NCBI GenBank assembly: GCA_017792445.1
Contig: CP051232.1
Span: forward strand, 744,001 to 808,000
Source of the DNA: Maritimibacter sp.
GTDB lineage: Bacteria; Pseudomonadota; Alphaproteobacteria; Rhodobacterales; Rhodobacteraceae
Direction: 5' to 3'
DNA length: 64,000 nucleotides
Notes under the pieces: generated by a model
Databases searched by the model: none
What the model saw: the letters and a program-made list of their open reading frames with translations, nothing else
What the model was told of the DNA's origin: nothing
In this document: positions 35,463-40,267 of the stretch, piece by piece
How positions within the stretch are numbered: the stretch's first letter is position 1
How the letters are laid out: each line of letters opens with the position of its first letter
Program-made: the position numbers and the translations under genes

Positions 35463-38400
35463 TCAGCCGCTGGGCATCTCCAGCGTGATCGTGCGGCCGC
35501 CTTTGGTATAGACAAGCTGGCCGTCACCGATCGCGGCGACCTTGCCGCCATCGACGGTGTCGCCCACCTGAACCTTTATGTAGCGCCCGGACGACAGCCG
35601 CACCAAAGCGCGGCGGTTGCTGGCAGAGCCGTAGACGCCGATCAGGTTCACGCGGTTCAGGCGCAGCGCGTTCTCGTCGGTCGCCGTCGCGGCGACGCTT
35701 GCGCTGGTCGGGATTTCGGGCGCGCGAACCGGAGCATTCACGACGGGCGTCGGGTCGGGCTGCGCGGTTTCGGCAGGCGGAGCCGGCGGCGCGGCGGCGG
35801 CCTCTTCCAGCGCAGCCTGCACGATTGAGGCGAAGCCCGCAGGCCGCGTCGGCGGGGTCAGCGACGCGTCCACGGCCAGTTCGGTTGCGCCGTCGAAGGT
35901 CTCTTCCACTTCGGCGGTTTCAACCTCGGCTTCGGGTGCTTCCAGAAGCGCGGCAGCCAGCGACGGGCTTTGAACGTTGTCGGTCGCCTCGCCTTCCGTG
36001 GTCGCGTCTGCAGAGGCCAGCACGGTACCCGGGCGCAGCGGCGGAACAACGTCGGCAAAGTCGATCAGAGGGTCGGGTGCGGTCTCTTCTTCCGGGGTCT
36101 CGTCGGCGGCGGCAACCTCTTCGTCGGGCGCCGCGTCGTCGGTCGTGGCGGTTTCCGCCTCAAGCTCCAGAACCACCTCTTCGGCGGCGTCGGCGACCTC
36201 TTCGGCAACAGCTTCTTCGTCGGCCCCGGCCACATCCGTCTCGGGCGTGTCGGGTGTCTCGGGGGCGGCTGCGGCATCGACCTCGGCAGCCGGCGCATCG
36301 CCCGGGCGCAGGGACGGCCGGATCTCGGACAGTTCCTCGCGGGTCAGCCCGCCGAACTGCGCACGCTCGTCGACCTCGGCCAGATCCTCCTCGGACAGCA
36401 GACCCGCCAGTGCATCGTCCTCGTCCGGGGCAAGCGCCGCGATCTCGGCTTCAAGCTCGGCGTCCTGCACGTCGGCGGCAGGTTCTTCCAGAAGCGTTTC
36501 CTCTTCCGGCGGCTCGGTGCCCGGGCGGACCGGCGGAACGACCGGCGGAGTGCCACGGATCACCAAAGTGCCCTGCGGAGAGATCGCGCCCTCTTCCGTT
36601 GCGCGCACAAGGCCGCGCTCGTCCAGATCAAACTCGGTCACCAGCGGGAACGGCGGCAGGCCCACGATCGGGGGCGTGTCAGAGGCGGTCAGGTCTTCCT
36701 CGGTCGGCAGCGCGCGCGGCGAGGGATCGGCCAGCGCGACGTCTGTGGAGGACAAGACCGTTCCGTCCAGCCGGTCGATGCCGGGGCTTTCGATGGCGGG
36801 CGGCGCGAGGACGGAAATGCCGGTGCTTTCGTAAATCGCATCGGCCTCGGCAACCGAGGGCGCGGGCACACGGCTGGGCGCGGGAGCCGATACCTCGGCC
36901 TGCGGCGCGTCTTCGGCGACCGGCGGCTCTTCGAGGCGCACGATCTCCAGAGTGCCCGGAGCCTCGCCACCACCGGCGGGCGCGGCGCTTTCGTCGGCGG
37001 GCGTCTCGGTGCCGTCTGGCTGCGACGGCGCAATGGTCGCGATGTCGGGGGCGGGGCCGTCGTCCAGTTCCGGCCCACGCGGCATGTCGCTCAGCGCGGG
37101 CGGCGGGGCAACGGCAGCCATGTCGATGTCCGGCGTGTCGACCACCGGGCCGGGTTCCTCGACCAGTTCCGGCGTCTCGCCAGAGGTCTCGGCGGATGCC
37201 GGCGGCTCTTCGGCGGCGGGCTGGTTCTCGGCGGATAGTCCGGCGAATTCTTCTCCGTCCAGCGGCGTTTCCGGGGCAGCGGGCGCAGCTTGCTCGGGCT
37301 CGGGTTGAAGATCGGTGACCTCGATGCCCGGCAGCGGCACCGAGGGCTCGGCCTCTTCCGGGGCGGGTTCCGGCTCGGGCGCGGTCTCGACGACAGCTTC
37401 GGGCGCGGCCTCTGGAATGCTTTCCGGCGCAGTCTCGGCGGGCGGCGTATCAAGCGCTTCGGGCAGGATGACCGGCGCGGGTTCTTCGACCTCGGCGATC
37501 TCGGGGTCGCCGCCAAGACCGAACCAGCCAGAGGCCACGTCGTTCATGACATAGGTGGACCACAGCACGACTGCGACCAGCGCCAGCAGAAGGCCCAGCG
37601 CAATCGCCGCGCCAAGGAACTTCGGTCGCTCGCGCGGCGGCGTCTGGCCACGCGCGCCGAAGACGGTCATCGCGTCGGCTTCGCTCGACCGGCCGGCCCG
37701 GGGCGGCGTCGGCGGCACCGGAACCGGGCCACGCGCCGATGTCGGCATGCCCGCCGGCAGGGGTTTCGGCAGCGCCGAAGGCCCACGCTTCAGCGGCGCG
37801 CTGGTCGGCAGCGGCTGGCGCAGCGCGGCGGCCATATCCTCGACCTCGGCCTTCTTCTGCTCTTTCGGCCGGCCCATGCGCATCAGCGTCTCGGCCAGCT
37901 TGCTTCCCCGAGGCTTCTTCTCCTCGTCGGTCGCGGCAGCCCCCGGCGCAAGCGCCGCGGCCAGCACGGGATCGGTCTTCGGCGCAAGTTCGGGCGCGGC
38001 GGGGTCCACCATCGCCGAGCGGGCCGCCGCATTGTCGCCATCCGAAGCGTCCAACCCGGATGTGTCCGAAGCGGGGGAAACCGGCAGAACCGCGCGGCCG
38101 CTTGGCACAACCGTGTCCCATGCATCGGCAGAGCCCGCGTCGTCCTTCGAGGGCGCATCGTCCTGCAGCGCCGTCGGGCGGGTCGGCGCGTGGACCGGCG
38201 CGCTGCGCGGGTTCGACAGCGGCGGCAGATCGTCGATGACCGGGCCGCTCTTGGCCGGAGTAGACGTGGACTCTGTCTGCGGCTCGGGCGTGACAGGCGG
38301 CAGCGCCTCGCCGTTCACACGGGCCGTCGACCGGGGACGGCGCGATGTAAAGGAGAAAGGCGAAGAATTCGGCTCGTCGTCGTCGCCATCGGGAAGCGCC

Positions 38401-39383
38401 AGCAAGGCGGCAGCGAGCTCACCTGCGGACTGCTCTTGCGGCCACCTGCGGTCGGCAGAGGACGACCGGGCGGGCTCGGGTGCGTCGGGCGTGTCGCCCA
38501 TGGTGTCCGACTTGCCAGTGGCCGGTGACGCAAAGCGGTCCGCCACATGATCCAGAAGCCGGTCATTCGCGGGCGGCAACGGGTCGGCAGGCGGCTCGTC
38601 TGCCGGAACCGAAGGTTCGCTGTCGGACGATGTGGCATCCGGGGCCACGTCCCCGGACGCGGTGTCGTTGGCCGCCGTCGCGGCATCAGCCTCGGATATC
38701 GCTTCGGCAGGCTCAGAGGCGACAACCGCTTCCGGCGCGCCCTCGGGCTCTACCTCGGTCTTCGCATCGGACTTCGCCTCAGCCTTGCGCTTTTTCTTGC
38801 GCTCGGGCTCCGGTTCCGCATCGGGCACCTCGCCCAGCTTGCCAAGAACCTGGATGCGCTTCTTGTCCGGCTCGACGGACTCGCCGCCGTTCAGTACACG
38901 CTCGGCATGGCGGGTCGGGCCGAAGAACGGCTCGCCATCGAATTCCGACGGGCTGGGCATCGCGACGAAGGACATCGGATTGAACCGGTACTGGGTCGCG
39001 AAGGTCTCTGCCTCCAGCAGGGTCTCGCGGGCGACAACGGCGACCTGCGCCTTGCCCTTCTTGATCCGCCAGTCGAAGTTCAGATCGCGCACGTCGTAGG
39101 GCGTCACGCCCACCAGCGCCTCGCGGATCTGCGACTGGCGCTCCGCCTTCGTTGGCCCCGGCGCATCGACCTCCAGATACAGGATCTGCGAGTTCGGGAT
39201 CACAAGCTTCGTGCTCAGCCCGGCCGCCTCGAGGTCCGAGGCGGTGCGCCGAAGGACGACCAGTTCATCGACCAAATCGGGCGCGTCCAAAGACACGTCA
39301 CCCACGTTCAGCCATCCCGCCTGCGCGCGGTGGAGAAGGCTAATTCCGTCATGGGTAAGGTTCAGGGCGAAACTGGGTTTCAT
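35463..39383 (-). CDS. Giant GspL/PilM-like to PilP/GspC-like fusion with acidic linker
   Basis: A 1306-residue protein. Residues 1-160 resemble the cytoplasmic actin-like domain of GspL/PilM: LVIPNSQILYLEVDAPG, REALVGVTPYDVRDLNFDW and VAVVARETLLEAETF. A basic patch (about 195-205) and a long Glu/Pro/Ala/Asp-rich stretch lead to one membrane helix at about 590-613 (FLGAAIALGLLLALVAVVLW). The rest, over 600 residues, is again acidic and low-complexity with recurring PPLRPG and PSLRPG motifs. The last 70 residues form a compact domain (NLIGVYGSASNRRALVRL, KVQVGDTVDGGKVAAIG) like the periplasmic region of PilP/GspC. The predicted topology is N-in, C-out. No other secretion or pilus gene is adjacent. 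Codon periodicity and intact domains at both ends argue that the whole frame is real. Function is unknown; an assembly scaffold spanning the periplasm is a reasonable inference. Confidence 0.8.
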   Translation of the reverse strand: MKPSFALNLTHDGISLLHRAQAGWLNVGDVSLDAPDLVDELVVLRRTASDLEAAGLSTKLVIPNSQILYLEVDAPGPTKAERQSQIREALVGVTPYDVRDLNFDWRIKKGKAQVAVVARETLLEAETFATQYRFNPMSFVAMPSPSEFDGEPFFGPTRHAERVLNGGESVEPDKKRIQVLGKLGEVPDAEPEPERKKKRKAEAKSDAKTEVEPEGAPEAVVASEPAEAISEADAATAANDTASGDVAPDATSSDSEPSVPADEPPADPLPPANDRLLDHVADRFASPATGKSDTMGDTPDAPEPARSSSADRRWPQEQSAGELAAALLALPDGDDDEPNSSPFSFTSRRPRSTARVNGEALPPVTPEPQTESTSTPAKSGPVIDDLPPLSNPRSAPVHAPTRPTALQDDAPSKDDAGSADAWDTVVPSGRAVLPVSPASDTSGLDASDGDNAAARSAMVDPAAPELAPKTDPVLAAALAPGAAATDEEKKPRGSKLAETLMRMGRPKEQKKAEVEDMAAALRQPLPTSAPLKRGPSALPKPLPAGMPTSARGPVPVPPTPPRAGRSSEADAMTVFGARGQTPPRERPKFLGAAIALGLLLALVAVVLWSTYVMNDVASGWFGLGGDPEIAEVEEPAPVILPEALDTPPAETAPESIPEAAPEAVVETAPEPEPAPEEAEPSVPLPGIEVTDLQPEPEQAAPAAPETPLDGEEFAGLSAENQPAAEEPPASAETSGETPELVEEPGPVVDTPDIDMAAVAPPPALSDMPRGPELDDGPAPDIATIAPSQPDGTETPADESAAPAGGGEAPGTLEIVRLEEPPVAEDAPQAEVSAPAPSRVPAPSVAEADAIYESTGISVLAPPAIESPGIDRLDGTVLSSTDVALADPSPRALPTEEDLTASDTPPIVGLPPFPLVTEFDLDERGLVRATEEGAISPQGTLVIRGTPPVVPPVRPGTEPPEEETLLEEPAADVQDAELEAEIAALAPDEDDALAGLLSEEDLAEVDERAQFGGLTREELSEIRPSLRPGDAPAAEVDAAAAPETPDTPETDVAGADEEAVAEEVADAAEEVVLELEAETATTDDAAPDEEVAAADETPEEETAPDPLIDFADVVPPLRPGTVLASADATTEGEATDNVQSPSLAAALLEAPEAEVETAEVEETFDGATELAVDASLTPPTRPAGFASIVQAALEEAAAAPPAPPAETAQPDPTPVVNAPVRAPEIPTSASVAATATDENALRLNRVNLIGVYGSASNRRALVRLSSGRYIKVQVGDTVDGGKVAAIGDGQLVYTKGGRTITLEMPSG

Positions 39384-39550
39384 GCTTCAGTCTATAATAT
39401 GTCGGGGGAGCGCATGGGAGTCGCGCTCCCTTTCAGTGGGTTATGTATAGCAACAAACCGCCGAGTGGAAGTAAAACACCCGTCCGGGGGCTTGCCCGCG
39501 CCCTGCCCGGGGCTCAGTTTCCCGGTCAAATTACCGGGAGGAAATTATCC

Positions 39551-40267
39551 ATGCGATCCGTCTTTGCCGCGCCCCGTCTTGCCGTGGCCGCACTGTGCCT
39601 CGCCCTTCCCATCGCGACCGCCGCCATGGCACAGGACGCGGCCCCGAACCGGCTGACCGTGACTGGCACCGGTGTCGTGTCCGGCATCCCCGACCTTGCG
39701 GTGCTGACGCTTGGCGTCACCAGCCGTGGCGACACCGCCGCCGAGGCGATGGACGCGACCAGCGCCGCGACCGCAGATGTCCTTGCCCTGCTGGCAGAAA
39801 CGGGTGTCGCCGACACCGATATGCAGACGTCGGACCTGTCACTTTCGCCGGTCTGGTCGAACCGCAACAGCGTATCGGGCGGCGGCGACGAGATCACGGG
39901 GTTCCGCGCGTCGAACACGGTCACCGTCCGCATCCGCGACCTCGACGGCATGGGCGAAGTTCTGGACGCCGCCATCGGAGCGGGCGCCAACGAGTTCCGC
40001 GAACTGCGCTTCGCATTGCAGAACCCGGCCCCAGCGCTGGACGAGGCGCGCCGCCTTGCGGTCGCCGACGCGCGTGCGCGGGCCGAGACCTATGCCGAGG
40101 CCGCAGGCGTCACTTTGGGCAACGTTCTCGAGCTTAGCGAATCGGGTGGCGGCGGCGGGCCGATCATGATGCGCGAGGCCGCCATCGCCTCTGCCGTGCC
40201 GATCGCCGCCGGCGAGGTCGACACCACCGCGAGCGTCACCATCGTCTACGAGATAACCGGGCCCTGA
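39551..40267 (+). CDS. Periplasmic SIMPL-domain (DUF541) protein
   Basis: A 238-residue exported protein with a signal peptide ending AMA-QDA and a SIMPL/DUF541 domain (LTVTGTGVVSGIPDLAVLTLGV, then FRASNTVTVRIRDLDGMGEVLDAAIGAGAN and DARARAETYAEAAGV). Members such as YggE/BP26 are periplasmic or outer-membrane-associated; BP26 forms channel-like rings, and YggE relates to oxidative stress. GGGAGGAAA precedes the ATG by about 7 bases. It is divergent from the giant scaffold gene, with 167 bases between, and convergent with Anbu. Confidence 0.9.
   Translation: MRSVFAAPRLAVAALCLALPIATAAMAQDAAPNRLTVTGTGVVSGIPDLAVLTLGVTSRGDTAAEAMDATSAATADVLALLAETGVADTDMQTSDLSLSPVWSNRNSVSGGGDEITGFRASNTVTVRIRDLDGMGEVLDAAIGAGANEFRELRFALQNPAPALDEARRLAVADARARAETYAEAAGVTLGNVLELSESGGGGGPIMMREAAIASAVPIAAGEVDTTASVTIVYEITGP

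Follow-up and report, generated by a model that had tools for sequence, protein, structure and literature searches.

We analysed a 64,000-nucleotide stretch of the Maritimibacter sp. genome (contig CP051232.1, positions 744,001 to 808,000; hereafter the window), a genome that consists of a single contig of 4.68 Mb. The window carries a minus-strand open reading frame (ORF) for one long protein, in which a model reading the letters alone (the original prediction) had guessed from motifs a GspL/PilM-like actin-like N-terminus, a membrane helix and a PilP/GspC-like C-terminal fold (Table 1). The ORF is a genuine coding sequence, since frames are intact in relatives and the codon comparison shows constraint. 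Among 49 fetched relatives, 39 have a single uninterrupted frame of 763-1402 residues, two have a premature stop (L045 and L073) and eight are cut by a contig end. The long frame of the original prediction is therefore continuous, not interrupted, in 39 of the 41 relatives that are not contig-cut. Over the head, identity is 98% to a Maritimibacter sp., 84% to Psychromarinibacter and 78% to Pseudoruegeria, and these named relatives place the window's genome in the Rhodobacteraceae. Literature searches turned up no paper on this gene in their search listings, one of which was loose; a lead, RSP_1200, is a different protein, DalA, according to PMC10470522.

Table 1. Coordinates of the gene, its parts and its divergent neighbour within the window
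Feature	Residues	Window positions	Strand	Remarks
Whole gene	1-1306	35463..39383	minus	1306 residues; ATG start, stop codon 35463-35465
Head, shortened GspL/PilM-type actin-like cytoplasmic domain	1-175	38859..39383	minus	predicted fold
Cytoplasmic Pro/Ala-rich linker	176-583	37635..38858	minus	length 3-602 residues in 57 proteins
Single transmembrane helix	589-607	37563..37619	minus	hydropathy; conserved block 560-612
Periplasmic acidic Pro/Ala/Glu linker	613-1225	35709..37547	minus	length 170-615 residues in 57 proteins
Block B0	848-900	36684..36842	minus	36/58 proteins; 8/18 not used to build profile
Block B1, contains PPVRP (950)	905-956	36516..36671	minus	48/58 proteins; 10/18 not used to build profile
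Block B2, contains PSLRP (1023)	984-1028	36300..36434	minus	39/58 proteins; 8/18 not used to build profile
PPLRP motif	1114-1118	36030..36044	minus	sequence motif
Block B3, contains PPTRP (1177)	1160-1198	35790..35906	minus	48/58 proteins; 9/18 not used to build profile
Tail, GspC-HR/PilP-type small beta domain and part of conserved preceding helix	1226-1306	35466..35708	minus	predicted fold
SIMPL (DUF541) domain protein, divergent neighbour		39443..40267	plus	PF04402 E 1.9e-55; PDB relative 4hvz E 1e-36

Two end domains with predicted secretion-type folds

The head was modelled with a predicted local distance difference test score (pLDDT) of 94.8, and a fold search placed GspL cytoplasmic domains at the top and PilM next, as had been guessed. 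FtsA matches were weaker than those of GspL and most PilM, and lay near the level that the tool calls common. The only PDB sequence matches of the head profile were designed TPR proteins (best E 1.8e-11, about residues 8-59), of which no stretch or one stretch was significant alone. Since the head model has another fold there, we take these matches as chance hits from repetitive sequence. Type IVb PilO was rejected as a relative of the head because Cupriavidus PilO2, the neighbour of PilP, was unmatched, a comparison of a profile with one sequence and so a weak one. The window genome's own GspL gave no match either, which argues against it as the source of the head. One genome, G154, has a second, head-only copy of 289 residues (L151 5574-6443) without a tail match, in addition to the full-length gene.

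The tail model has a mean pLDDT of 77.3 and a predicted template modelling score of 0.58, with pLDDT of at least 85 in every ten-residue block of the last 60 residues. It matches both GspC-HR and PilP in the fold search, so the C-terminal guess also stood. The TIGR03021 pilP_fam model reaches E 2.1e-6, with 28.8 bits for the tail alone and 25.9 for the whole protein, below its curated cut-off of 34.65. The window genome's own GspC matched the tail weakly (probability 44.8) and was dismissed as its origin.

The tail family also includes a small stand-alone protein with no detectable helix and frames mostly of 88-112 residues (L159-L166), which sits between purF-like and short-chain dehydrogenase genes in all eight fetched relatives, with a surE-like gene next in seven. 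Its counterpart in the window genome (G000:C1:3565523-3565771; L167 8515-9000, minus strand) lies, by eye, beside a dehydrogenase-like frame. A second tail match occurs in 44 of the 150 genomes surveyed below, and one of these small paralogues matches PF04351 PilP at E 1.8e-4.

Between the two ends, residues 589-607 are the only stretch hydrophobic enough for a membrane helix, which bears out the membrane helix originally claimed. Basic residues precede it by eye, and by the positive-inside rule the N-terminus would lie inside and the C-terminus outside. Two headless relatives, G019 (L178 6051-6722) and Paroceanicella profunda (P0002; L182 5437-6249), combine a hydrophobic N-terminus with the short linker motifs described below and the tail. 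Together with the basic flank of the only helix, they point indirectly to a periplasmic tail, and they show that this half of the protein can exist alone.

Like GspL, the protein would combine an actin-like cytoplasmic head, one helix and a periplasmic part. In contrast to GspL, the head is modelled over 175 residues against 224-238 in GspL chains, no GspL_C or PilN Pfam hit was found up to E 5 (a profile miss, not proof of absence), and the gene lies outside any gsp locus. The tail shares the HR domain fold of GspC in the predicted model, but no PDZ hit was found and the linker is about 600 residues long. For comparison, the window genome's own T2SS (type II secretion system) GspL is hit by GspL_C at E 5.9e-12, and its own GspC has a PDZ hit. 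PilM chains are 333-357 residues long; the head is half that size and aligns over 140-148 residues of chains of 336-355. The protein also differs from type IVb pilus PilP (TIGR03021) in its sub-cut-off tail score, the unmatched PilO2 and the lack of a pilus gene among nine Pfam-searched window neighbours. TonB/TolA-type periplasm-spanning proteins are similarly built from one helix, a long linker and a small end domain; here, however, the end domain is of the GspC type and a large cytoplasmic domain is present.

Conservation and retention without secretin

Most Rhodobacteraceae examined carry the protein. Of 150 family genomes with a completeness of 95% or more, 141 match the head profile and 148 the tail-family profile (E up to 0.01). 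Among the nine that the head profile misses, G098 and G153 have a full frame whose head is divergent, G019 lacks the head and starts with a hydrophobic segment, the tail frame of G103 stops about 100 bases or less from the end of a contig, and G046 has a 121-residue tail frame. The remaining four are G094, G107, G128 and G151. G074, a 2.6-Mb genome, has an eroded or split form, with the head in one frame, the tail in another and no membrane helix detected (L153 4615-5888).

Both ends are under constraint, and the cytoplasmic linker the least, as judged by the ratio of nonsynonymous to synonymous substitution (dN/dS) against four relatives. In the order head, cytoplasmic linker, periplasmic linker and tail, the nearest relative, L025, gave ratios of 0.018, 0.215, 0.092 and 0.071, and L026-L028 gave 0.20-0.31, 0.54-0.82, 0.37-0.39 and 0.20-0.29. 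An alignment of the window protein with 39 relatives showed conserved islands at residues 1-175, 566-612, ~901-960, 986-1030, 1161-1195 and 1216-1306.

The secretin profile PF00263 matches 135 of the 150 family genomes, leaving 15 unmatched. The head profile matches 13 of these 15, and two more (L176 and L177) have divergent heads. Head, helix and tail follow in order in one frame in 14 of them (L137-L148, L176 and L177), while in the fifteenth, G047 (L149), the gene runs off the contig. The secretion ATPase profile PF00437 has no match in 12 of the 15, one match below the cut-off and two above; the window genome, searched alongside, gave three matches, two above the cut-off. Since the protein is kept in genomes without PF00263 and mostly without PF00437, neither secretin nor secretion ATPase is needed for its retention, and both are ruled out as obligatory partners. 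This sets it apart from GspC and GspL. The original prediction had placed the partners elsewhere or left them unnamed, and it is backed here more strongly than it was stated. A search for an STN/N0-like domain as another partner in the secretin-less genomes carries little weight: across 16 genomes its sole match, in G060, stayed below threshold (E 0.0165), and it also missed the window genome's own secretins.

Beyond the family, a survey of 289 genomes of the class gave seven head-profile matches, five from Rhodobacteraceae and two from the other 284 (E 9.2e-6 and 3.0e-4). The latter two are GspL-like genes, with PilN hits and PilM_2 below the cut-off. Each is followed by a T2SSM gene, after which comes a frame hit by the tail profile (E 4.4e-6 and 8.9e-7) but by no Pfam model. 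Both loci contain a T2SSF gene, and L175 also shows a T2SSE gene and secretin. In the simplest history, portions of GspL and GspC, once components of a T2SS or type IV pilus platform in the inner membrane, would have fused and moved out of the operon.

Linker motifs and neighbouring genes

Both linkers are acidic, as originally claimed, with a net charge of -22 for residues 176-583 and -129 for residues 613-1225; the latter consists of 15% P, 18% A and 15% E. The recurring PPLRPG/PSLRPG-type motifs (R-P motifs) of the original prediction also recur here: PPVRP, PSLRP, PPLRP and PPTRP all lie on the periplasmic side, and the cytoplasmic linker has one similar PTRP at about residue 399. The consensus of block B1 is G.v.PTpEG..tP.G...aG.Pp.vPppRP. 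For motif counts we collected 58 proteins and dropped one in which no helix was detected. In the remaining 57, which are related so that the counts are not independent, the pattern P[PSATLVQEN]xRP occurs 132 times in 21,041 residues of periplasmic linker, where shuffles give 19, and 18 times in 17,491 residues of cytoplasmic linker, where they give 23.5. R-P motif enrichment is thus restricted to the periplasmic side. Because the pattern was chosen after the window's motifs had been seen, the cytoplasmic linkers serve as a fair control. An extended chain of 170 residues, the length of the shortest periplasmic linker, is long enough to cross the periplasm.

No secretion, pilus or division gene was found among the nine near neighbours in the window that were given to Pfam, eight of which were assigned, in keeping with the original statement that no pilus or secretion gene is adjacent. 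In addition to the SIMPL gene, they encode a hydroxyphenylpyruvate dioxygenase, a PAS protein, a sodium/hydrogen exchanger with a TrkA-N domain, a proteasome-family protein, a transglutaminase, an Alpha-E protein and an ATP-grasp protein; one frame had no hit. In the loci of relatives, only counterparts of these window genes were sought. Of the 47 loci that have 1 kb or more of flanking sequence, 35 carry the SIMPL gene as the divergent next gene. It was detected in eight of the 15 fetched secretin-less loci (one weakly), and it also adjoins the headless forms of Paroceanicella and G019.

The upstream DNA at window positions 39384-39550 looks conserved in relatives by eye, with a CTTTYCYTCGGC...CTGCTRTAG-like block. 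A TGTGCTAGA-like -10 element, also noted by eye, ends about 8-10 bases 5' of the ATG at the same place in relatives. An element so near the start codon would suggest a leaderless transcript. Regulation by CenR was considered and set aside: its site, published as TGA-N8-TGA (PMC9275681), was not spotted upstream by eye, and no scan was run.

A candidate envelope tether and its alternatives

We favour, at slightly better than even chances, an envelope tether that belongs to the core of the Rhodobacteraceae. It would have arisen from a T2SS or type IV pilus platform in the inner membrane and is kept without secretin and in most cases without secretion ATPase. The GspL-like head would lie in the cytoplasm, where it could bind a partner, and one helix would cross the inner membrane. 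A long acidic chain with short R-P motifs would then span the periplasm with no need for folded linker domains, and the motifs may bind periplasmic partners along the way. At the far end, the GspC/PilP-like domain would dock on a periplasmic or outer-membrane-side partner. This reading builds on the predicted folds of both ends, the single reading frame, conservation with purifying selection at both ends, retention in secretin-less genomes and the motif bias; the topology, the origin by fusion, docking through R-P motifs and tethering itself go beyond these observations. The scaffold role of the original prediction is likewise something that we infer.

Several observations weigh against a tether of this kind. 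Linker disorder is judged from composition, and dN/dS of the cytoplasmic linker comes close to neutrality in one comparison (0.82). At least two relatives are headless, so the head is not indispensable. The small paralogue, in which no helix is detectable, indicates that the tail domain is not bound to act in the periplasm in every case, and it may account for part of the 148 tail-profile matches. Finally, secretin absence is called from one profile in partly draft genomes, although G060 is one contig and G102 and G142 are five each.

An accessory alignment protein for a T2SS or Tad pilus, whose head binds the secretion ATPase and whose tail binds the secretin N0 domain, would explain why the best fold matches are GspL from a GspE complex and GspC from a GspD complex. 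The window genome has the machinery for it. A T2SS locus about 1.6 Mb from the gene (G000:C1:2398000-2416000, L076) encodes GspC, D, E, G, I, J, K and L by Pfam, with I below the cut-off, and a Tad-type locus about 1.9 Mb away (2640000-2658000, L077) has TadB_TadC_N, T2SSE and AAA_31 hits; each has a secretin and a PF00437 ATPase. Secretin is also matched in nine-tenths of the family genomes (135/150). However, this T2SS already owns a GspC and a GspL, and the 14 intact head-helix-tail frames in 15 secretin-less genomes (the last contig-cut), together with the missing PF00437 match in 12 of the 15, make such a role untenable as the general conserved one. It could be an added role in some species, and as a whole we hold this explanation to be distinctly improbable. 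A cell-division or peptidoglycan scaffold, whose actin-like head associates with the divisome or cytoskeleton and whose R-P motifs and tail recruit peptidoglycan enzymes, is unlikely but somewhat less so: the FtsA matches of the head fall below GspL and most PilM, near the common level, and no division gene stands among the nine near neighbours.

A view of the gene as the unselected remnant of a lost T2SS might draw on the two of 41 uncut loci that stop early and on the split form in G074. Purifying selection at both ends (across four relatives, dN/dS is 0.018-0.31 in the head and 0.07-0.29 in the tail) already refutes this reading, which its wide presence (head 141/150, tail 148/150) also opposes, and we give it almost no credence. 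The SIMPL protein is a candidate partner as a positional lead only. By likeness to GspC docking on the secretin ring, and as the Brucella SIMPL relative is described as a channel-like hexadecamer (PMC6884894), one may picture a secretin-free trans-envelope complex, with the GspC-like tail on a SIMPL ring, the acidic R-P linker running through the periplasm and a cytoplasmic partner recruited by the GspL-like head. We regard this arrangement as speculative and quite doubtful.

In their known context, GspL and GspC belong to secretion machines. That a fused GspL-GspC-like protein is kept where the machine is absent suggests that such modules are able to act as an envelope bridge in their own right. 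The 15 secretin-less genomes offer a natural experiment that separates the module from its usual partner, and the gene provides a widely conserved, defined starting point for asking what holds the Rhodobacteraceae envelope together.

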